DNA of 64,000 bases from Stenocarpella maydis (lineage: Eukaryota; Ascomycota; Sordariomycetes; Diaporthales; Diaporthaceae), in assembly GCA_002270565.1 (NCBI GenBank), contig NQMI01000016.1, forward strand, positions 62,001 through 126,000, read 5' to 3'. The translations under genes were made by a program, and so were the position numbers. This document shows, piece by piece, positions 9,665 through 34,454 of this stretch. The notes under the pieces are model-generated. The model searched no databases. It was not told the DNA's origin and worked only from the letters and a program-made list of their open reading frames with translations. How positions within the stretch are numbered: position 1 is the stretch's first letter; the number at the start of each line of letters is the position of its first letter.

Positions 9665-10273
9665 CCGTGCGAGATCGACGGTCTGAAGCCGTCAGTGGTG
9701 CGGCAATGGAATTTGTTCCCGGCGCCCTGCGCGCTGCTAGGTCTGTCGCGCTGCTAGGATAGGACGTCCAAAGCATTCGTCAGGCTACCGCTCTTCGCGC
9801 CGCTGGTCGACTCGTTTTGCGGTGGGAAACACGCGGCGATCGTCAGGTTGCGACCCGGCCTGCGGCGTCGAAACGATTGGCTGTGGCCATGCCAGGCGGC
9901 GCCAGCGAGGCTCCAGGCCGAAAGGATTGGCTTGCGGCATTCAGCTGCCTCTACCCCGCCCTTCCTCACGACTCGCATCTCTCACGGTTTGTCCTTCTGC
10001 TTCGGAGACGACGATCAGCAGCTCCCTCGTCAGGTACCAGCGCGATGATCTACGCATCAGCCAGGGTTCGCCCTCCTAGTTGATTCGACAGCGCGCTCGA
10101 GACGATGGAGAGTGTCCAACGGTGGAAAGAGAAGCGCAGGGCTACGTCCCCTCCGCCAGACACGAGCCGCGACTGGACTCCTGGTCCGCAATCACGCGCC
10201 GAAACAGACTCCGGTCCGTCCGAGAGGCCCTCCAACACGCCCGTCGCTGAGGCTCAGGTGACCGTATTGGAGG
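9665..10273. other. No gene recognised
   Basis: Short GC-rich frames overlap on both strands. The region lies just 5' of the PNP fragment and may include its former promoter. Confidence 0.3.
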
Positions 10274-10705
10274 ATGCGCCTCCGACAGCCGCGACCGCGT
10301 CGGCCCGAAGACTTCGAGATCGCGGTGTTCTGCGCACTGCCGCTCGAGCACGATGCTGTCTCCCTCATGCTCGATGAATTGTGGGACGGACATGGAAGCA
10401 ACAGCCTCTACAAGACTGGTCGCATCGGCAAGCACAATGTCGTCGTGGCTCTGCTCCCAGGCATGGGCAAAGCCAGCGCCGCAAGCACAGCGGCCAGCAT
10501 CCGTTCGAGCTATCGCCGCCTACGACTAGCCCTTCTTGTCGGAATCTGTGGCGGCGTACCTCGAACCGGCGGTATGGAGATCCTGCTGGGTGACGTGGTC
10601 ATCAGCAAGGCAATCGTGCAATACGCCTTCGGCAGACAATATTCCGACAGGTTTGAGCGCAAGGATGGCCCCGAAGATAACAGAGCGAGGCCGGATATCT
10701 TGTAG
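10274..10705 (+). pseudogene. N-terminal PNP (nucleoside phosphorylase-like) domain of a wrecked NLR
   Basis: The frame from an ATG at 10274 carries the start of the PNP_UDP_1 domain seen at the N-terminus of many fungal NLRs: DFEIAVFCALPLEHDAV, TGRIGKHNVVVALLPGMG, LALLVGICGGVPR, EILLGDVVISKAIVQYAFGRQ. It ends at a TAG at 10703, right after the point where the domain should continue for another 150 residues. In intact relatives this domain is an enzyme or sensing domain in front of a NACHT or NB-ARC. Here the rest of the domain and the whole nucleotide-binding module are gone, and ankyrin sequence follows 9 bp later. I read this as an internal deletion. Confidence 0.8.
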
Positions 10706-10713
10706 AGTTATGG

Positions 10714-11160
10714 GTGGATATATACTGGGAAATAGATCGTTATTCCGAGGACTGCCCACGAAAAGGGACTAGCCTGATACACGTTATGTCGAGGTATGGG
10801 GTCTTCGGGCTGTTGACGGCTATTTTGCAAAGGGGGGATCAAATTACTATTGTCGACGCGAGAGATGACGACCGCCGGACACCGCTGTGGTGGGCTGCTG
10901 GAAACGGGCACAAGGGTATTTTCAAGTTGCTACTCGGCACGGGCAATGTCGACGTCAACGCGAGAGATAGCAAATATGGTCAGACACCGCTATCGTGGGC
11001 CGCCGAGAACGGGCACGAGGCCGTTGTCCAGCTGCTGCTCGGCACGGCAGCAGCGGTCGCTCAGACCTTCGACTACATGATTCCGGCCAGGCTACCTGTG
11101 GCTGTCTTACAATGGGGGAGGCGTTCGTTTTCCTCAAAATCGACTGAGCCGACCCCATAA
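10714..11160 (+). pseudogene. Ankyrin-repeat C-terminal fragment of the same wrecked NLR
   Basis: A frame of 148 residues contains two clear ankyrin repeats (RTPLWWAAGNGHKGIFKLLL and TPLSWAAENGHEAVVQLLL), with the NVDVNARDSKYG linker typical of fungal NLR ankyrin arrays and a weaker repeat before them. It is not in frame with the PNP fragment because of the intervening TAG, and both its start and end look truncated. PNP followed by ankyrins is a known fungal NLR architecture, so both pieces probably descend from one gene. Alternatively it is a separate small ankyrin protein. Confidence 0.7.
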
Positions 11161-11889: not shown

Positions 11890-13467
11890 TCAGGCCCTCC
11901 GCTTTACTGCCAGTAACTGAAAGTCCTCATCCCCCGCAGAAGCCCGCTCTGCAGCGTCCCTCTCCTTGACTTGATATCTTGCCTCGTCCTCAGACCTTAG
12001 TTCGTCGGCCGGACTGGACGACGCCTTGCGCTTCCTTATCTGCCGTTGGGACTTGACGCTTTGTCGCCCGCCCTCGGGCTCTCTGGCTTGATGCATTTGC
12101 TCGGCTCGAGCGAGAAGGCTAGCGAGTTTCTCGAACGATATGTTCAACGAGACAGACTCGTCTCTAATGGGCAGTTCGTCCGTAGCGAAGTCGCTTAGCT
12201 TCAGCTGTAGAGCATTTCCCCCGTTGGCAGGTGATCCGTCTGAAGATCGGAACGGCTATTTGAAACATGAGCTTCTGCCCGGTTCACAAGAGCAAACGAC
12301 GTACCAGATATGCAACCTCCGATCTCGCCTCAAGTACCTCGAGCTCTTCACCCTCTTCTCGGATGTAATTTGGACGCCATAGCGACACGGTGGATGCTCT
12401 TCCATAGTTGATGTCGAGGCCGATGACAGCTTTGATATCGCCATTGGAGCGCAATATATAGTCCGAGGCCAACTTCCTCAGATTCTTACCGTCCTGCGAG
12501 TATGACACCTCCAGAACGACCCCGGGATAGGCCGCGTCCTGGTGTTGGATTTGCCCATCTGGTTCGCGTCGCATCGGGTGTGATGGGCCTTCAGATACCC
12601 CGTCTGAGATTCCCTCCTCCAACAGGATGCGAGATGAGCCCCCGTCTTCAACCTTCGCCACAAACTCACCAGTCGCGCCTCCTTTGTCGGCAATGCGCCT
12701 TAGCTGGTCGCGTATTTCATTTGCGAAGAAAGTCTTGAAAAAAATCGTGGACTGGAGAGGGCATCCGAAGGGTAATAATTCCAGGTTCTGGCTCGTAATC
12801 GTAGCTGTGAGCCATCAGCGTGACGACGATATCGCGCTCGCGGAAATGCATACCGCACTTTGTCTTCCACATACGTCTTCAACGGCGGCTCTCCGTCAAG
12901 CAACTCTAAGAGGCGGCAGTGTTGTTCCGGCGTTAGCTTGTGTTCGGTCAATGGCGTAGGGAACTTCGTTGCTGTCGTCTCATGGCAGGTTCGGAGCATG
13001 CGCATCACTCTTTCGGCAGACGCGTCCACACTCGGCCGGTGTTGCTCTTCGCTTGCAGGAGGCGTCAAGTGAAGTGAAATCGTGGTCTCGGGCGGCGCGC
13101 TCCCATGCAGATCTGAACGATGCTGAGATCGCAGGCTGGGGCCGCCATCGATAGCCGTTTGCCCAGCCATTTCAGCGGACAATGCACGGGTGTCCTGCAG
13201 ACACCCGTCGTCGAAGTGGCGGCGCGAGGTGGAATCGGAGGAGACGACGGGCCGGGCGATCGAGCTGACATCAGCTTCGGGGCCCGTGGCTCGTGCGCAG
13301 CTCGCGCCGGCTGGCGGGGTCGCCTGGGTCTGCGGCTGAGGCTCTCGGACGGCTGAAGCAGCACGAGGCTCCCATCTCGACCGCCCACCTCGACGCGGAT
13401 ACCTGCCCTGATGGATTTCTGCTCTCTTCGTCGCCTCGCCGCTCCACCGGTCGATAGAAGCGCTCAT
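11890..13467 (-). CDS. Orphan fungal gene, nuclease-fold-like C-terminal half, apparent 1-nt frameshift
   Basis: Three exons can be joined: 12854-13467, 12305-12804 and 11890-12255. Introns at 12805-12853 (GTATGC..CACAG, 49 bp) and 12256-12304 (GTACGT..AATAG, 49 bp) restore a continuous product. Its N-terminus is disordered and Pro/Ser/Arg-rich. The core reads PPLKTYVEDKVRYDYEP, LRMPSPVHDFF, GSSRILLEEG, YPGVVLEVSYSQ and DYILRSNGDIKAVIGLDI, which matches a family widespread in ascomycetes with unknown role. The C-terminal tail is basic (RQIRKRKASS). The P-x-VVLEV word followed by a basic helix resembles Uma2-like PD-(D/E)XK folds (inference only). A run of seven A on the plus strand (12738-12744) breaks the frame: six would restore it. 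The start at 13467 is the last good ATG before the NLR; longer starts would overlap the NLR. Confidence 0.65.
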
Positions 13468-13514
13468 TCCGGGCACGTAGACCACAGATTGCACAACAAG
13501 CGGCAGGGGCGACC

Positions 13515-16500
13515 ATGGGTTCCGAGGCGCCTCTGAGGGTCCTCTCTCTCGGTAAGGCTGGGCTCTCCCGGCGTGTTCGTCGCGCTGACCTGGCACAGAT
13601 GGCGGCGGCATCCGCGGCATATCAAGCCTCCTCATCCTCGAGGATGTCATGGAGAAGCTCCGCGACGCCCTGAATCTCGACAGCACTCCGCGGCCCTGCG
13701 ACTTCTTCGACCTGATTGGGGGTACGAGCACTGGAGGGTAGGCCCAACAGCCAAACCATCCTGTCTGGGTTTCCCACTGATGGACTGTACAGAATCATCG
13801 CGATTATGCTAGGGAGGTTGGGTATGACTGTGAAAGAATGTATACAAGCATACAAAGAGGTCGCCCAACAGGCCTTCACACCGAAACGAACCACATTCCT
13901 GCCCGCCTCGCCGGCGGGCGCCTTCTCGGCAAAGGCCCTCGAGGACGCTATCAAAAAGATGCTGAGGAAGTTCTGCGCGGAGTCGGAGTGCGCTGCTCAA
14001 CGGAGCCAGGGCCTCTCGACGACCGAGACATGTCCGCATAGCGACGTAGGATACCGACATAGGTCTTGCACCAAGACGTATGGTTCTCCGAGGCGCGTTT
14101 TCAGCCGTTACAGGGTAGCTGACATCTAGCAGGGTTGTCTTAGCGATTACAAAAGATAATGTTGATGCGGGGCCTACCCTTTTTGCAACCTACGACATGT
14201 CCGCCCGCCTCGACGGATGCGCTGTTTGGGAGGTTGCACGCGCGACGTCAGCGGCAACAACCTTCTTCAAGCCCATCAAGGTTGGTTGTAACAGCATTGA
14301 ATTTGTCGACGCCGGGTTTGGGTATAATAACCCGTGCGAAGTCCTTGTCGAGGAGGCGCGGCGACAGTTTCCCGGGCATGGACTGCTGCAGGTTCTCAGC
14401 ATCGGGACGGGACTCGGCGACGTCGTTTCGATTGGCAACACGCGGTTGGCGATTGTCAAGGCACTGAAGACAATGGCTTCGTCATCCAAGGCAGCAGCGG
14501 CGAGACTGAACAGCCAATACGGAGATAGCGGCCAGTACTATCGGTTCAATGTTAATCAGGGATTGAAAGACGTTACCCTATCCGACTGGGAGAAGTCCAG
14601 TACAATCTCGGCACACACGCACAACTACCTAAATGATATTAACACGAAAAGGGAAATCAAGAAGTTCGTGGACGGACTTGCAGGTACTATGCCGGGCTCG
14701 GAAGCGCAGGTGGGAAGGACGGCACCGGCGACAGGCAGCGCGGCCGAGAGCGGTAAAGACGAGGCTCAGGAAATGGCAGCAACCTTGCCGCGCCGTGTAC
14801 AGAGGCCAGAAGCTCAACCGGGCGGAGCCAGTACCGGTGAGTGTGAACAAAGCCGTGCCGCGTCATCCGGCGGCTGCTGAACCGGCCACAGACCGCCCTG
14901 GTATACCGTGGCACTACATCCCGTTTACCAGGAACCTCCGCTTCGTCGGAAGGAGCAAAACGCTGGGCAAGCTCCAGCAGATGCTCTTCACGCAGGAGAC
15001 GTGCCGAAAGGCCGCCGTCGTCGGGCTCGGTGGCGTCGGCAAGTCCCAGGTGGCCCTGCAGATGGCATACTGGGCGAAGAAGCACCGGCCGGAGTACTCC
15101 ATCTTCTGGGTGTCGGCGCTGAGCGGAGCGACTTTTGAGCAGGCATACACCGAGATGGCAAGGATGCTCCCTCTGGGAAATGTCGGTGCGGACGATGAAG
15201 ACCCCAAAGACGCGGTCCGGCGATACCTGAGCTCGTCGGCGGCCGGGCCGTGGCTTCTTGTGGTGGACAACGCCGACGACATGGACACCGTCTTCGGCTC
15301 TCCAGGCGGCCCAGGCGGTCTCAACAAGTACCTCCCTGAAAGCGAAGACGGCGTCGTGCTGTTCACAACACGGTCTCGAGAAGTGGCCGTGTCGTCGGCC
15401 GGAGGCGACGTGGTCGAGCTACACGAGATGGACCCGGGCGAGGCGGCTGATTACTTGGAGAGGTTGCTTATCCGGGACGACGATGTTGGCACGGCTGAGC
15501 TGCTGAAACAGCTCACGTACCTTCCCTTGGCGATCACACAGGCGGCGGCGTACCTGAACACCACCGGTGTGCCGATGGCAGAATATCTGAACCTGCTGCG
15601 TGGGGCAGACCAAGAGGCGGCTAGCCTGATGAGCCGGGAGTTCCACGACAGCACTCGATATGAAGGCTCGCAGAACGCGGTAGCGACAACGTGGATCGTG
15701 TCTTTCGACCAGATCCGCAGATCTGACGGCACCGCGGCTGATCTGCTAGCGTTTATGTCGTGCATCGAGCCGAAAGCCATTCCGCAGTCGATGCTGCCGC
15801 GGTGTGAGCTAGAAGAGCAGATGGTGCATGCGATCGGCACGCTGTGTGGATACGCCTTCCTGACCCGACGCGGCAACAGCAAGGTGTTCGACATGCACAG
15901 TCTGGTGCACTTGGCAACACGAATCTGGATTCAGAGAGAGGGCCGTGTGGCAACGACGAGCGAAGCGGTGATCCGACAGGTTGCAGCGGTCTTCCCGAAC
16001 GACGACCACGTGAACCGCAGCCTGTGGAGAGAGTACCTTCCACATGCTTTCCGGGTATTGCAGCACTGCTCAGAAGCGGATATGAAGGAGAAGTACAATC
16101 TGTGTTACTGGGTCGGGCGGTGTTTGAGGGTGGATGGACGGATCGGGGAAGCTGTGGAGTATTTGGAAGAGGCGTGGCGATGGAGGAAGAGTTATTTCGA
16201 GGAGGACCACCCCTCGCGGCTCGTGTCGCAGCACGCGCTCGCCATCGCCTACAGGGCTAACGGGCAGGTGCCAGCCGCCGTCGCGCTGCTCGAGCAGGTC
16301 GTCGCCATCAAGGCCAGAACCCTCACCGAAGACCACCCCTCGCAGCTCGTGTCGCAGCATGCACTCGCAATCGCCTACAGGGCTAACGGGCAGGTGCCAG
16401 CCGCTGTCACACTGCTCGAGCAGGTCGTCGCCATCAATAAAAGGGTCCTTGCCGAAGACCACCCCGACCGGCTTGCATCGCAGCACGCGCTCGCCGTCGC

Positions 16501-16777
16501 CTACAGGGCTAATAGGCAGGTGCCAGCCGCCGTTGCGCTGCTCGAGCAGGTCGTTGCCATCAAGGCAAGGGCTCTTGCCGAAGACCACCCCGACCGGCTC
16601 ACATCGCAGCTCGAGCTTGCCGTCGCCTACAGGGCCAACGGGCAGGTGCCAGCCGCCGTTGCGCTGCTCGAGCAGGTCGTTGCCATCAAGGCAAGGGTTC
16701 TTGCCGAAGACCACCCCGACCGGCTCGCGTCGCAGCAGTGGCTCACATACACATTGCAAGGAGCTAGCTCAGGATAA
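13515..16777 (+). CDS. Patatin-NB-ARC-TPR NLR-like receptor (1016 aa, five exons)
   Basis: Exons 13515-13551, 13599-13737, 13793-14077, 14133-14836 and 14892-16777 join in phase with introns of 47, 55, 55, 55 and 55 bp (GTAAGG, GTAGGC, GTATGG and GTGAGT donors). The patatin phospholipase domain is complete: oxyanion motif DGGGIRG (13-19), nucleophile GTSTG (Ser56) and DAG (Asp213). A Pro/Glu-rich linker leads to NB-ARC with P-loop GLGGVGKS (433-440), Walker B WLLVVDNADD (509-518), FTTRSREVA, LPLAITQAAAYL and an MHS in the MHD position. From residue 826 come 42-residue kinesin-light-chain-type TPRs. This is the architecture of Neurospora PLP-1, which triggers germling-regulated death together with the SNARE SEC-9. 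Here no sec-9 neighbour is present; instead a divergent orphan gene starts 47 bp away. It probably acts as a cytosolic receptor whose lipase is released on activation. Confidence 0.93.
16205..16774 (+). repeat. Near-identical 126-bp coding repeats (TPR array)
   Basis: Units start at 16205, 16331, 16457, 16583 and 16709 with an exact 126-bp period. Each encodes a 42-residue TPR of the form DHP..L.SQ.ALA.AYRANGQVP followed by AAVALLEQVVAIK. Nucleotide identity between units is very high, including synonymous positions, and the last unit is partial. Such homogenised repeats are typical of rapidly evolving fungal NLR ligand-sensing domains. Confidence 0.9.
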
Positions 16778-17667: not shown

Positions 17668-18728
17668 TCAATCCAGAACAATAGGGTTTTGAGAAGATGA
17701 GCCCAGCTCACATGTCCTGCTAGCAATTTCTGCTTGCTGCATTCCCAGCTCTTGACCGGACCCTGGGAGCCTGCATGTTTGCGCTAGGCTATCAGACTTG
17801 AAAGCTCCAGCGGCATGCTCATTCAGATACCGGAAACAGCTATCGCAATCCAATTCCACCGAGTAGTCGAAGATATGGCGGAATTCGCTCCGGGGTCTTG
17901 TAAGACCAATATATGCTGTTATGCCCCCATTAGTCCTAACCACCTTGGCAAATCTCTTGACCAACTTTTTCAGCCCATCGACTTTAAGACTTGTTCCCAG
18001 AACCAGAAGGAAATCAGGACAGGCGCGTTCGTCTTTTGTACTGATGTCAAAAATTTCCTCCCCATAAGGGTGATGCTGCTGGCCGAGCCGTACAATATCA
18101 GGGAAGTTTGCCGATTGGTGTTCGTCGCTTCCCAGCTGCCTCGCGGTTGTCGGAACAGGTTTTGCAGGCCGGACATAGCAAGTCTTGTCCAGCAGCAATA
18201 TGAGTTTCGAAAATTTCCCAATCGAACAGGTGCTGGCACAGATCGCACTGTAAGTGACGATGAGAACCATGGAGCTCCACATATGTTCCGTTGTCCAATT
18301 CGAGAGCACTAAGCAGGCCGGCTTTCTGCTCAAGCAAGTCGATGTTCTGCGTGTAGCACCGAAGAAGAGACCCAGCATCACGCATCGCCACGAGAGCTTT
18401 GTGCGTATACGTCGGAGTACTGTTGCTGGCAAGCCGGTGCAGTAGTAAGGTCTGTTGGCGGAGTTGTGCCCTGCTACTGGCATTACGAAGTGCAGTCTCG
18501 TGGAAGATTTGTCCTTTTGAATAGAGCCCGTTTTTTGATCTAAAGTCCTATGTATTATATCAGTCCTATGAGTTGAAGAGAGAAAAGAGGCTTACTAACT
18601 GGAATACCGGCAGCTGTGCTTATTCCTGCTCCAGCTACAACAATGACTCTTTTTGTGGAATTGAGCGCTTTTGCGATATTCTCCAGCTCCTGGAAAGAGC
18701 TGGGGTAGGTTTGGTTCGTGAGATCCAT
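17668..18728 (-). pseudogene. Sirtuin (Sir2-family NAD-dependent deacylase), frameshifted
   Basis: Exon 1 is 18600-18728 (43 codons ending in AGAGISTAAGIP) and exon 2 is 17668-18547, joined across a 52-bp intron 18548-18599 (GTTAGT..CATAG). Sir2 landmarks are present: GAGIS and DFRS for NAD, TQNID, the catalytic His in ELHGSH, two zinc Cys pairs (CDLC and CPAC), DIV, and GTSLKV. Near 18098 the frame breaks: PIGKL ends in a TGA, while PDIV, GEEI and FLLVLGTSLKVDG follow in another phase. One surplus base, or two missing, explains it. The pattern is closest to fungal Hst3/Hst4-type sirtuins, which deacetylate histones. It is either a recent pseudogene or an assembly error. A Lys/Ser-poor C-terminal tail ends in SSSQNPIVLD. 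Confidence 0.8.
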
Positions 18729-18784: not shown

Positions 18785-18922
18785 CGCTTAGTAACCTCAA
18801 GCGCACGGTCGGTGGTTCCCAGTAACCGCCAAATCCTTGCCTTAGTTTCCCAGTAATTCTCAAGCGCCCAACGCTGATTCCCAGTAACCACCAAAATCTT
18901 TACGTCAGTTCCCAGTCACCCG
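18785..18922. repeat. 31-bp tandem repeat with core TTCCCAGTAA
   Basis: The core occurs at 18815, 18846, 18877 and 18908 (last copy TTCCCAGTCA), a regular 31-bp spacing, with CAAGCGC and CCGCCAAATC-type words between. It sits in the promoter side of the sirtuin. Confidence 0.7.
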
Positions 18923-19231
18923 CAGTGACTTACCCCTGGCTCCTAGCTACGCGCGCGCTTGTTTCAGGGGTTTCCGAAAACGGAGGTATGGCGCTCGCCG
19001 GAGAATTGGCGTGTCTGGCTACATTTTGGGTGCCGCGGAGGTCATCATCGGCCCTGAGAGGTCTGCACGAGTCATTGGCGCCACGGATAGGGTGATGGCG
19101 CCATCGAGCCGGGCCTTTGGCAAGGGGGCATATCCCACTAACAAACGCCCCCCCCCCCGGCAGAGTGCGGCCGCAGTCTCTAGAAAACGCGACCCAGTGG
19201 AGCACAAGGGCGATGTTATCGAGTCTCGGAG

Positions 19232-19412
19232 AACGGGCTACACAAGAGGCGGGGGTCGGGCTGTGGCGCGTCGCATCGTAAGCGCCGCAGCCCTTCGCGG
19301 GCCAGAGCGGGTAGAGGCGAATGCGCACGCTTCGTTAGCTCGGCTTGCCAACCCTAACGAACAGCACCACGGTCTGATACCTGGCTCCGTCGCCCGTTGC
19401 ACAGCCTTTCGC
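19232..19412 (+). repeat. Dispersed repeat, copy B (partner at 9504-9660)
   Basis: See copy A. This copy lies 180 bp upstream of the 305-aa orphan gene and is in frame with it, so gene predictors may wrongly extend the gene through it. Confidence 0.55.
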
Positions 19413-19589
19413 GGCACAGCCCATGATACAGAGGTAGGATTCACAAATCCCATGAGCCCGGGGTGCGGTATACTAGCCGCGATCCCGGATCCCAGTGCCC
19501 GGATTCCCTCTATATATACCGATATATCCCTCGTCTTCGTAGTAAACCTGCTTGAAAACCACATTCAACGAGCGAGTCAACCAGGCATT

Positions 19590-20580
19590 ATGTGCGATGA
19601 TATGGATATCGATGACGACGCTACCAGGGTAAACCTGACATTTAATGCAGTCAGTTCTCCAGTAACTTCTGCAACAAAGTCACTCCAGCGTCTCGCTATT
19701 AGAGATGAGACAGCGCCAGTAAGGGACCGCAGAAAACGTACACGTATCTACAAAGAAGCGGCAGCCGCAGTACGAAAACGCAAGCAAAAGCCTGAGTCGC
19801 GCGTTCCGCGCCAGAATCTGGGGCGACGACTCTATACCAGGAACTGGGTACTGCAGTTCATCCCGAGGCTGGTTCGGCACGATGTAACTGCCTTCTTTAC
19901 GACTCATTTCGAGAAGGCACTAGATACATGGATATCGATCCTTACGGAGACTACGATACCCGACAATATAGCAAGCTCGGATCCCTGTGTCATTCATGCC
20001 TTCCGGTTGCTACACAATGCCCGAGGAAGCGGAGATCCCGTACTGTCTAGACTCGCCTATATTCGGTTGACGCACGTATTTGAGGCAGTGGAAAAAAACG
20101 TCGCCCGGAATCGGCAACATGGACGACTTCCAGCCGAAAAGCGAAAGCGCGGCTATCGTAACCCTTGTATCGCCATGGATATATATATCGACGCTCAAGA
20201 ACAAGCGGGGACCTCTAGGACTGATGTAAAGGAATATAGACGGATCGCCCGGCGCTGGAAAATACTCTCGGGACCTTCACCTCTCTTCATCATCACCTAC
20301 ACGGACGCAGCCGAGGGTCTCGCGTATGTACTGCATCGTTTTACAGGCGGCTTTACACTAACTGTCTGAAAGCAAGAAGTCATTGATAAAAGCTAGCGAA
20401 CCAGATCTAAAGCGCCTAGCCTCCATCATCGTGCAAACCGCACCTGTCGGGATCGTCCAAGCGTCCGAGCGTCTTGCGATGATAGCAGAATGCACAGTAA
20501 GCCCGCGTCCATCAGTTGATGTGCAGGATGTCCTTGGGGAAGTCAAACAGGGCCTGCTTGGCGGGGTGATGGGGAGCTAG
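19590..20580 (+). CDS. Orphan fungal protein (305 aa, two exons)
   Basis: The start is an ATG at 19590 (MCDDMDIDDDATRVNLTFNA), with a second at 19602. Exon 1 ends at 20323 and exon 2 runs 20397-20580. The 73-bp intron has donor GTATGT, a CTAAC branch point and acceptor GCTAG, and its length gives the phase change needed. The product is basic in the first third (RRKRTRIYKEAAAAVRKRKQ, a probable nuclear localisation signal). A helical core follows with VLQFIPRLVRHDVTAFFTTH and RLLHNARGSGDPVLSRLAYI, and exon 2 adds DLKRLASIIVQTAP. It resembles a conserved hypothetical family in Sordariomycetes with no known function. The frame is open 580 bp upstream of the chosen start, through repeat copy B, so the true N-terminus could be longer. 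Confidence 0.7.
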
Positions 20581-27802: not shown

Positions 27803-30267
27803 TCAGGCCCGTAATCTAACGCCGTGGACACTCTCCACGTGGTTCTTGAAATGGTTCAAGTGCTTGAACTCCAGCGTCTCCTCCCTGCACTTAGGGTGAT
27901 TGCACGACATCTGCTTCGCGCCGCCTAGATGTTGCGCGTGCTTCCTGTCGAAATGGTCGTACATCACCGCCCGCCGACAGTACTTGAACGTCCTTTCCTC
28001 ATGAGACAGGGTTTCATCCCCGATGCAGCGTGGACATTGCTTCCTATCCATCAGGAGCGGAAAGAGGTCCGGCCCGGGAGACTCCTCCTTCACCGTGATG
28101 TCGGCCCGCGGTTTCCGTCGAAGGCGGTTCCGCCTCGCGGTCTCTCGTTTGCCGCACAGGGCGACCATGAGCTCGGCCGCCTGGATGCGGAGCTCGAGCA
28201 CGTCCGAAGAGCTCAAGTTGTCCGGCTGGTTGCAGAGGATCTCGGCCAGCTGGGCGCGTTCAGGGATGTGCAGATCGATGGTCGGCGCAACGTATCCCTC
28301 CTCCTCTTGGCCCTCGGCCTCGATATCCCAGGTCGGGCGGTTGTGAAAGTAGTCTTCCCGGTAAGCTCGCCGGATTGCTTTCTTCCGCTGCGCCTCCTTA
28401 GACGCGATCAACCTGGTAAGCTCCCGAATCCGGTCCTCGTTTTCGGTGCCTTTGATCCGGTACTGGCCGCCTTTGAGCTGTGCTCTCTCCGCCTCCAGTG
28501 CGGCGATCTCTGGATCGGGCGGCATCATCTCCCAGACCTCGTCGGGGACCATATCTCTGCTCGCACGAGGGTCTCGCATGAGGCCTATGTGTGAAAGCAT
28601 TGCAAGCAGGCTGTCCTCGGTCGGCTCGTCCAGGAATGCGTTCTGAAGGTGGAACCCAACCTTCTCGTTGATGTATGCGCTGTTGAACGTAGCCCACTTC
28701 GGGTCGTGACGCATCATCTGATCGCGGACAGCATCGGAGGCGTTTCCTATGCGCTATTAGACCAGTGGCTGTTCTGAAGATGGAAGAACATACCGTTTGC
28801 TGCGTTGGCCGCTCCTCTTCGCCAGGCCTTTGGCTCGATCGCGTTTTCCTCGCCAGCATCGAGCGATTGCCGTGCCATATCGTCTGCTAGCTTCTGGTAT
28901 GGAAGAGGTTGATACTTCGACTCGTCGGATTCCTCCTTTGCAACGAAGTCCTCATCACGGCGGAAGACAGGCCGCTTGAGCCATTCCTCCTTCCAGCGAA
29001 GGGGGGTACACTTGACTGGCCCCCGATTCTTTGCTTGAAAGACATCTCTTGCGCTCGTGAACTTCGATGCGGCAAACGCGCCGTCATGCACGGCCAGGCT
29101 AACGATGACGGTGATAAAACAGAAGATCACCCTCCTGGTGGGGGTGAAGAAGAAGATAGTCCTGAATAGAAATTGTCAGGTCCGAGACGCCAAAGAGAAG
29201 GGAGGCCATCACTTACGGTTTCGGCTTGTTGTCTGCGCCTTTGTGGTGCGCGAGCTTGATGGACATGGCCAGGACGTCCTCACCGGTTTCCGGGTGGCGA
29301 ACAACCATCAGCTTAATGTCCTCGTAGCAGAGCGCTTTTGGGCGGCCACGACTCTCGCACTCTTGCAAGATCATCTCTTCCAGAAGCCTGGAAAGGTCAT
29401 CAGACGCCTCATCTCCGTCGCTAGAGGTACTCCCAGCAGTGCGCCGCGGGAAGAGCTCTTCTAGACACCCGTCGTTGCCGCTCTTTCTCTCGCCGTCCAC
29501 AAACTCGGCCGGCCGCGCCCCCGTGAAGGCAAGGCCGAGGTAGCATCCCGGCAGCTGGACCCGGTGCTTCTCCGAAGAAAAGATGCCCATGTCGAACTTG
29601 ATATTGAAGGTCAGGAGGACCAGCAAAGTGTCCGCGTTCGCGACGTCCTTTCCACGGATGCATGGCGCTTGTAGGCCGTACCGGTCAATCAAGACGGCGT
29701 CGTGCCACTTGCGAGCCGCATTAGCTGTACGTCGCCCGGGCGGGAGTTTGGGAAACGTACCTTCTGGACTTCTTTACTGTCGTTCCTGTCCATGTAGCGG
29801 CCCGTGACACTGGTATACAGCTGCTTGTACTGGCGGAAATATTGCCACGACGAGCCCCACGAATCGATCCGGCATGTCTGACACAAATACTCGAGGAAGT
29901 CCATCGCCATCGCTCGGTTTGCTTTCTGTATCACGTCTCGCCAGGTCCCCTCTAGCTTGTTGAACTGGCAGTATCTCCAGGTTCGTTAGCGGAGATGCGG
30001 ATGAAACGGGAGGGGGGCGGGCTGTTTTTACCTCTTCCATTTTCGCAGCATACCGGCAATGTTGATCTTGGTCTTGTCGGCATAGTCGGGCTGAAGAAAC
30101 TGGGTGTCCTCGAGCTGCTTGCGGAGAGCTGCGCGCTGCTTCGGCGTAAGGGCCGCTGGCCGTTTCGCAACTCGCCGCTGCTCCTCTCGCTGCGTGAAGC
30201 GCCGGATGAAATCCGTATTGTAATGCTGGCCGCCTGCGGGCGGCTGTGGCGGGCGGCGTGGCGCCAT
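27803..30267 (-). CDS. DUF3435/FluG-domain tyrosine recombinase with C-terminal zinc fingers (750 aa)
   Basis: Five exons (30032-30267, 29761-29974, 29217-29707, 28794-29161, 27803-28746) join cleanly through introns 29975-30031, 29708-29760, 29162-29216 and 28747-28793, with GT..AG ends throughout and no stop. Family words include PAGGQHYNTDFI, DYADKTKINIAGMLRKWKR, GSSWQYFRQYKQLYTSVTGR and GRPKALCYEDI. Tyrosine-recombinase landmarks can be placed: box I Arg in FTGARPAE (R215), Lys in HHKGADNKPKP, Arg in AWRRGAANAANG (about 428) and a candidate nucleophile Tyr in FNSAYINEKV (about 461). The C-terminus has CPRC..H..H and CNHPKCREE..H..H zinc fingers. DUF3435 proteins include the captains that mobilise Starship giant elements. 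This one is intact, which is unusual for old transposon genes. Confidence 0.9.
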
Positions 30268-31572: not shown

Positions 31573-34454
31573 TCAAACGATGCTGATGCGCTCGACTCGT
31601 TCCTCCATATCCCTCCACTGCTGCTCACTCGGCGAAACGCCAAGATATGCCTCGCCCATAAACTTCCAGCCCGTCATGCCCTTCATCTCGCCATGTAGTT
31701 CGTGTAGCTGCTTTTCCAGCAAGAGCCTGGCCTTGCTGGTCAGAGTCTTCTTCAGGCAGTCCTGCAGTTTCTCAACTCGCCTCTGCGCCATAGCCGCTTC
31801 CTCTGCGAAGACATATGGGACCCTCCCGTCCGCAACCAGCATGACGACGTCCCCCGCCTGCACGCTGATAGGACCCAGCCCAACCTGGCCGTCTGACGTG
31901 ACGAATATATCCATCCAGTTGCCCGCGGGAACCACGTAGCCCACAAAGCCAGTCGAAATCGGCGACGCCACTACCCACTCCCCGGCGTCATCATGCTGAT
32001 CCGTGCTCCGCCGTACTATGTCCGGCCAGGGCGCGTTAGGGAACACCGCTCTCAGCCGCTCGTAAGCCGCAATGAGTCTCGCCTGGCCGTGCGCTGCGTT
32101 CATCCAGGGGGCCATGAGATGGGTTACTCGCGTGCGAGCCCGGCTGCACATCTTCAGGGCCTCGGAGACCCTCTCGGCCATGTAGCTGCAAAACTGGGCG
32201 ACGAGGTCCTCTGTGTTTGACGGCTGTACCGGCCTCCCCTTCCACCTCCCGCCCACGAGTGCGCTGGCAAGGGCCGCAACGCTATCGCCGCTGCCCAACC
32301 GGCGCGGGACCACCTCGGCAACCCACTCGACAAATTTGATCATATCAAGTGCGTCGCAACCCAGCATATATGACGCTGTGATGTGGTCACTAATGGTTGC
32401 CAGTCGGACAGCGGACGCGAAGAGGGTCGTCCCGTCGTGAGAAATCCGGGCCCTTGGGTGCTGCTCGAATATGCCATCCACCATCGGGGAAAGACTGTCA
32501 GCTTCAATGGCCACGCCAGGCTCCGCCATGGGCCATGTTCGCGTAGTCGCCGTCATCAAGGGGAGCGGCACCCAAGACGGGACACTGGTGCGAGCCCGCT
32601 GGAAGGGGCTCCATTCCCTAGTGTATAGATCGCCGAAGGTGGCTACGCACCCGAAGAGGCTGCCTATACCGTGTGGCTGCGAGAGCAGACAGGCAGCCAG
32701 GTTGTAAAATACCTCTGATTCATTTGCCTTGTAATTCGTGTGAAGGACGGGCCAGAGGCGCTTTGATGAGGAATCGGGGACTCGCGGCAAATCGGAGCTG
32801 TCCTCCTGTGTGGGCGGTTCGAGCTGAAGACCTTGGTCTATTCTCAGTGTCTCGGGCTGGACGAGCGAGAGTGCAGCGTAGATGTAGTCCCGCGGATCTG
32901 ATGCTCGTCGATTCTTGCATATGAGCAGCCAATGCTCTAAGGTCCATAGACCGCCGTCTCGAAAAAAGTCGCGATGCTCAATTGTTTTGTACAAATCCAC
33001 AATGGAGGTGCCGAACACAGACAGCAACCGGTTGCAAGAGCCTCTCAACGACGCCAGGGCCAAGGTGGAAGCATCATCGCCATCAGCCATGGCTGTCACG
33101 GCTGCCTGGAGCTTGTGTAGCGCCAAAAGAACAACATCAGCATCCAAGCAGCATCCTCCGTGCATGAAAACAATGCGTCGCGCCAGGCAAGCTTCCTGGA
33201 GCACCCAAAGGCGCCGGAACCAGCGTCGGCCAAAGACGTATGCGGCAGCTAAGACCATCGATAGTATGTTCCCTTTGGTGGAAAGTGATCCTCCTCTGGG
33301 GACTTTCTCCGGCAGTACCTTGGGGTGTGAAGTCGCGCCGCCGGATCTGATGGAGCCATGCGCTGACGAAGAAGTGATATGAGGAGCTGGGAGTGCGGAT
33401 TCGCGAAGCTCACACGAAGTCATCGTCCCCCTGGATTCGACTCGAGCCGGCTCGATAGGCCCGGACAGGGAGGATTGTGGAATAATTCCGCCACCGTCAG
33501 TACATACAGGCGATCTGGCGGGAGGAGACGGAGGGGCGCCGGGAAGAAGAAGTGGTGGTTGTGGAGGTGGTGGAGGTGGAGGTCGAGAGGTGTGCGTTTC
33601 ATCGTGCGCTACTCCCTCGATCAAATTGTTCAATCTAGCCAGGCCAGGAGAAAGAACGGTCGGACATTGCCCGAGCCAAACCAGCACCTCCCCTGCGCCA
33701 CGATATACTTGGCCCATCATCTGGACCTGAGATGCGCGCTCTTCGAGGTCGAGCTGGTTGATACACACGGCATCGATCCAGTAGTCTCCCGGTCGACTCC
33801 GCCGCAGTTGGAGCAAGGCGTCATAAAGATTGGGGAGGACACGAAATTGTTGCCCATTGAGAATGATGGTGCGAGTCTGGCCTGTGAGCTGCTTCTTCTC
33901 CCTGCGAGAAGCAGCAGTCAAACGTTCCGAGTTGTGATAAACTTGCGCAGCATCCAGCCTCTGTTCCATTCTTGCTGATGATTCACCCTTGAGACGTCCT
34001 TTGAGCTGGTGATACATGACAAAAGAGATCGCACGTAGACCTTCTTTCACGCAATAGACCGCAAGCCTCGCCCATGACTTATCTTTGACCCACGAGTAAG
34101 ATACGGCCGTATAGTCTGGCTCGTCGTCCAACTCGACTGTGCGCAAGGTGCAACGTATCACGTCGGATTCCGCGTCCTCCTCGATGCTGAGTACTCTGAT
34201 GGAGGAGGGCGTGGGAAGTCCGGCATACCGAAATTCGTCCGCTGTGAGTGCCTAGCCGCTGGATGCATGAGCCATAGCACTCTAGTTGCTGTAGTTGAGT
34301 CAATGGGTCAAGCACACACCGCAATGGTTTCTTTGGGTCTCCTCAGGAACTTCTTGTCTGCCCACTGTTTCCTCAATACGAGCCCCAATTTCGCGGCCTG
34401 CCTGCGCGCGCTCCTCCCCACAAGCCCGGCCAAGGCTCGCTTATTGATGGGCAT
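31573..34454 (-). CDS. HET-domain protein (heterokaryon incompatibility family), 937 aa
   Basis: Exon 2 (31573-34251) carries the HET domain (PF06985): FRYAGLPTP, AVSYSW (about 94-99), VLPNLYDALLQLR, YWIDAVCINQ, ERASQVQMMGQVYRGAGEVL, RRLWVLQEACLARRIVFMHG (about 391-410) and DPRDYIYAALSL. Exon 1 (34320-34454) is joined by a 68-bp intron 34252-34319 (GTGTGT..GCTAG) and gives a basic helical N-terminus (RRQAAKLGLVLRKQWADKKF). This join is plausible but unproven. A roughly 110-residue Pro/Ser-rich stretch (PPPPPPPQPPLLLP onward, about 268-375) interrupts the HET core. The C-terminal 450 residues follow the usual pattern of HET proteins, ending with AGDVVMLVADGRVPYVF and GEAYLG. HET proteins trigger cell death after fusion of unlike strains. 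Trigger and partner are unknown here. Confidence 0.88.

Follow-up and report, generated by a model that had tools for sequence, protein, structure and literature searches.

A patatin-type receptor gene and a divergent, frame-broken Uma2-like gene in Stenocarpella maydis are probably accessory neighbours rather than a two-gene module

Several described systems come close to the locus considered here. PLP-1 of Neurospora, which recognises SEC-9, is a nucleotide-binding oligomerization domain-like receptor (NLR) with a patatin effector, and in the NWD2/HET-S cluster an NLR adjoins another gene. Among the SPOK spore killers, SPOK3 depends on a catalytic lysine, has a kinase domain at its C-terminus and finds its best HHPred match in HsdR. 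We analysed a 64,000-nucleotide stretch of the fungus Stenocarpella maydis (GCA_002270565.1, contig NQMI01000016.1; below, the window, to which coordinates refer), in which a patatin NLR stands head-to-head with a gene of a nuclease-like family. The original prediction suggested that the pair could be a recognition/effector module sharing a bidirectional promoter. We find the receptor and its neighbour to be real and the predicted fold of the latter to be supported; the two genes themselves, however, were probably placed together by accretion in a self/non-self island, with no module and with the NLR working alone. The features on which this reading turns are:

13515..16777, plus strand: NLR gene with patatin, NB-ARC and TPR parts, 1016 residues (spliced translation, Pfam, relatives)
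16205..16737, plus strand: TPR array of the NLR, with a 126-base (42-residue) period, 4.2 copies and 87% matches (Tandem Repeats Finder)
11890..13170, minus strand: gene with a predicted Uma2-like PD-(D/E)XK fold (exon-by-exon alignment of relatives, intron positions, start from relatives)
12725..12750, minus strand: reading-frame change in exon 2 of the Uma2-like gene (frame-wise translations and tblastn)
13171..13467, minus strand: upstream open stretch from an ATG at 13467, probably non-coding (BLAST against the 63 relatives)
13171..13514, no strand: interval separating the inferred starts of the two genes (start-to-start distance 345 bases)

What is the divergent neighbour? Its exons run from 13170 to 12854, from 12804 to 12305 (containing the frame change) and from 12255 to 11890, the end of the last open reading frame; they are separated by two 49-base introns (12853-12805 and 12304-12256), and relatives align exon by exon in tblastn. 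A query joined at the protein level, with X at the frame change, retrieved 63 relatives (best E 2.2e-88), mostly labelled hypothetical or nameless, the UniRef name of P0024 being 'Restriction endonuclease ...'. An organism name is given for 40 of the 63, the closest being from Cercophora and Podospora, and we take these 40 to be ascomycete fungi. The C-terminal strings quoted in the original prediction are present, and on sequence grounds the gene is a real one. Its start is another matter: the spacing of 47 bp claimed for the pair rests on the most upstream ATG, at 13467, and the 99 residues that this codon adds have no match below E 0.11 among the 63 relatives. Eight of these relatives served as tblastn queries for start and linkage; in two, P0006 and P0032, residue 1 falls exactly on 13170, while P0002, P0016, P0052 and P0058 start further in and P0060 and P0062 lack an N-terminal match. 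Likewise, an LTPP-type motif found by pattern search in 42 of the 63 relatives (median position 31.5, maximum 83) lies at position 35 of the window gene if counted from 13170 and at 134 if counted from 13467. Because relatives and motif position both favour ATG 13170, this is most likely the start, giving a start-to-start distance of 345 bases, which would be an ordinary spacing for divergent genes. The very short shared promoter thus loses its footing, since it presupposed a start codon for which the relatives give no support.

Within exon 2, relatives match both reading frames, and there is no gap able to hold an intron. The assembly consequently offers no single open frame for the whole protein, and the frame change may reflect a pseudogene, a variant or an assembly error. 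The copy retains its splice sites, the string RMPSPVHDFF before the change and, after it, all five residues that never vary in the family (E, Q, A, Y, W); a nearly invariant F following the PD motif is replaced by I.

To which fold does this family belong? Alignment, Pfam Uma2 and motif counts cover 50 of the 63 relatives (omitting P0004, P0038, P0041, P0042, P0044-P0047, P0050, P0051, P0053, P0054 and P0057). Two structure models, for which largely the same relatives were used, both have 1wdj as their best structural match, with 3ot2 ranking second and fifth, which places them in the Uma2/DUF820 (PF05685) fold. The Pfam Uma2 profile stays below its curated cut-off (14.1 against 27 bits for P0002; 8 of 50 relatives match at E ≤1, best 0.0048), and the three window frames of the gene match no Pfam family. 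The PD...E acidic core of PD-(D/E)XK proteins is present: P in 49/50 relatives, D in 48/50 and E in all 50. At the E-x-K place, 49 of the 50 carry S, and a nearby K (44/50) and K/R (45/50) could substitute. The N-terminal tail is TPP-rich and the C-terminal one basic. Together, the two models, the sub-threshold Pfam matches and the motif conservation support a Uma2-like PD-(D/E)XK fold, as had been predicted from the C-terminal half; the structure comparison, which might have spoken against it, did not. The protein would most likely be a nuclease that acts on DNA, or a DNA binder derived from one, in an accessory gene family and presumably located in the nucleus. P0184 of Metarhizium guizhouense, a 'recQ family helicase', points to DNA work: its residues 1-375 align to family member P0039 at 82% and are continuous with DEAD and Helicase_C domains, an arrangement that may represent either a genuine fusion or an artefact of merging gene models. 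It is the one match of the domain among 2431 candidate proteins of about 690-2180 residues, with no NLR matched. Separately, Trichoderma P0008 is named a telomere-associated RecQ-like helicase, yet its 387 residues align throughout as a family protein.

The receptor, predicted to be intact from 13515, proved to be so. Five exons (13515-13551, 13599-13737, 13793-14077, 14133-14836, 14892-16777), interrupted by four introns (13552-13598, 13738-13792, 14078-14132, 14837-14891), translate without a stop before 16777. On the long open reading frame, TPR and NB-ARC exceed their Pfam cut-offs; the patatin piece, one exon scanned alone, reaches 24.7 against 27.7 bits, just under the cut-off. Relatives gave 1170 matches, and results on them rest on the best 120: Pleurostoma is the source of the closest among the matches listed, and patatin, NB-ARC and TPR occur together in many, as in full-length P0064. 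With all three parts in one open gene, the patatin piece falling just short only by itself, this is a fungal patatin NLR and appears to be intact, unremarkable and of a common type. Internally conserved repeats have been reported as enriched in fungal NLRs (PMC4986451). The NLR would most likely act alone, as described for PLP-1-type receptors: its TPR array may bind the ligand, the NB-ARC module would then switch and oligomerise, and the patatin lipase could attack membrane lipids and so bring about cell death. Another patatin-NB-ARC gene of this genome (locus L036, 5670-7100, plus strand, on G000:C298) has a different divergent neighbour, a 477-residue frame without Pfam match.

Does the Uma2-like family keep company with patatin NLRs elsewhere, as a module would suggest? 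We searched the fungus's own genome (53.5 Mb, 312 contigs; the window is G000:C67:62001-126000) and found one other Uma2-like copy, on C111 (30% identity, E 7e-7, one internal stop), with no patatin match within the 19.5 kb fetched around it; an open reading frame nearby with PAS/LOV-like sequence is presumably white-collar-1-like. Starting from the other side, a patatin search gave 19 matches, made up of the window NLR and nine further loci. We examined seven of the nine over 9-10 kb each (C78, C298, two on C167, C145, C3, C248), leaving out the weak loci C111:105 kb and C67:15.8 kb, and tblastn with the eight diverse family members detected no Uma2-like gene at these seven. At C3, the patatin query was not recovered by tblastn at E 0.001, and the locus rests on the genome patatin search. 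Using size as a stand-in for contig identity and the longest contig per cluster only, we saw no contig shared between 62 of the 63 Uma2-like relatives (P0012 lists none) and the best 120 of 1170 NLRs. Cercophora sp. LCS_1, C. newfieldiana and Hypoxylon sp. NC1633 appear in both lists on differently sized contigs, and Fusarium oxysporum does so with different isolates. As far as these partial tests reach, with one fungal genome read, a second case of linkage was not seen, which counts against the module.

The wider neighbourhood includes a kinase frame and a Zn-cluster frame, a Sir2 piece and a PNP_UDP/ankyrin remnant. It also holds DUF3435 and HET genes, an arylsulfotransferase and a PIF1 helicase, and from 53 kb of the window onwards there are DUF5308 and transketolase genes. 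Three of these features are located as follows:

10262..11157, plus strand: PNP_UDP piece followed by an ankyrin piece, which looks like an NLR remnant (Pfam)
27806..29773, minus strand: DUF3435 tyrosine-recombinase-family gene in several frames (Pfam PF11917; the strongest of the genome's six DUF3435 matches)
31576..34251, minus strand: HET-domain gene, an 892-residue frame (Pfam PF06985; among the four HET matches that this contig has from 22 to 136 kb)

Four of the genome's 100 HET matches fall within 22-136 kb of contig C67, against 0.21 expected (Poisson P about 7e-5, for an interval picked post hoc). Genome-wide, there are at least 51 NPHP3_N matches (E up to 1e-5) and at least 10 NB-ARC matches (E up to 1e-3), in partly overlapping sets. 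An accessory island of this kind explains the gene neighbourhood without a module. Convergent with the NLR, on its 3′ side, lies a sirtuin (SIR2) gene spread over several frames (17671-18591, minus strand), adjoined by a 493-residue open frame without Pfam match (18888-20366, plus strand).

How, then, did the two genes come to stand side by side? That they form a recognition/effector module, with the Uma2-like protein either sensed or guarded by the NLR, or freed by it as a second, DNA-cutting effector, would fit their adjacency, their head-to-head order, the nuclease-like fold and the two-gene cell-death clusters known from fungi. Yet the NLR has an effector domain of its own, the domain's one match in large proteins is a RecQ-family helicase, and a module is not supported because the upstream start codon is unbacked, the partner is frame-broken and no second linkage emerged from the own genome or the NLR comparison; we consider it improbable. 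Improbable to a still greater degree is a bolder version, in which a eukaryotic Uma2-type nuclease is paired with a cell-death NLR such that one trigger hits both membranes, via patatin, and DNA, the frame change marking a disarmed allele. That the two became neighbours by chance within an accessory island is the more convincing reading. Several points nevertheless weigh against it or its parts. Fungal cell-death genes do cluster, as with het-S/nwd2 and gasdermin/protease, and a divergent pair at 345 bases could still be co-regulated. The linkage tests are weak, resting on the best 120 of 1170 NLRs, contig size as a proxy, seven of nine patatin loci and the own genome only. As to the fold, neither model was matched by Foldseek alone at E 0.001 or below, and strict conservation of the catalytic lysine is lacking, which means that nuclease action may be lost.

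Two further possibilities concern how the genes arrived and what is left of one of them. Both could belong to the cargo of a giant transposon of the Starship type, whose leading gene would be the DUF3435 gene at about 28-30 kb. This gene lies on the minus strand and points towards the pair, which is on its downstream side; it is a possible, suitably oriented captain. Captains occupy the leading position at the 5′ end and mobilise the cargo; the cargo looked for or found includes patatin-like genes and an NLR (PMC12134995). Solo DUF3435 genes are described as well. We regard this origin as rather unlikely. Somewhat more credit, though still short of an even chance, goes to the Uma2-like gene being a dead relic with the NLR alone of importance: the exon 2 frame change speaks for it, and the preserved splice sites, RMPSPVHDFF and five invariant residues speak against it, suiting a recent break or an assembly error, which is as likely as an old pseudogene.

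The useful outcome is the fold assignment itself: a scattered fungal family, mostly hypothetical or nameless and below cut-off in Pfam, gains a Uma2-like nuclease fold and becomes open to biochemical testing. For work on NLRs, the locus also carries a caution, as adjacency in an accessory island combined with the choice of the most upstream ATG can mimic a shared-promoter module.

Compared to the described systems, the SPOK proteins share with the window family a PD-(D/E)XK-type domain in a fungal protein, but nearly all of the 50 relatives counted have S at the E-x-K place, and the family shows no kinase among its Pfam matches and so lacks the SPOK combination of a catalytic lysine in the nuclease domain with a C-terminal kinase. 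With the NWD2/HET-S cluster, the locus has in common an NLR adjoining another gene; here, however, the NLR starts directly with its patatin domain, so that one would not expect an N-terminal amyloid motif to be handed to a partner, no search aimed at such a motif having been made. The receptor shares its patatin effector with PLP-1, although its neighbour is a Uma2-like protein rather than a SNARE. The neighbour, in turn, departs from Uma2/DUF820 proteins in its sub-cut-off Pfam score, its TPP-rich and basic tails and the lack of a strictly conserved catalytic lysine, yet its models match 1wdj and 3ot2, and its family has kept the PD...E core.
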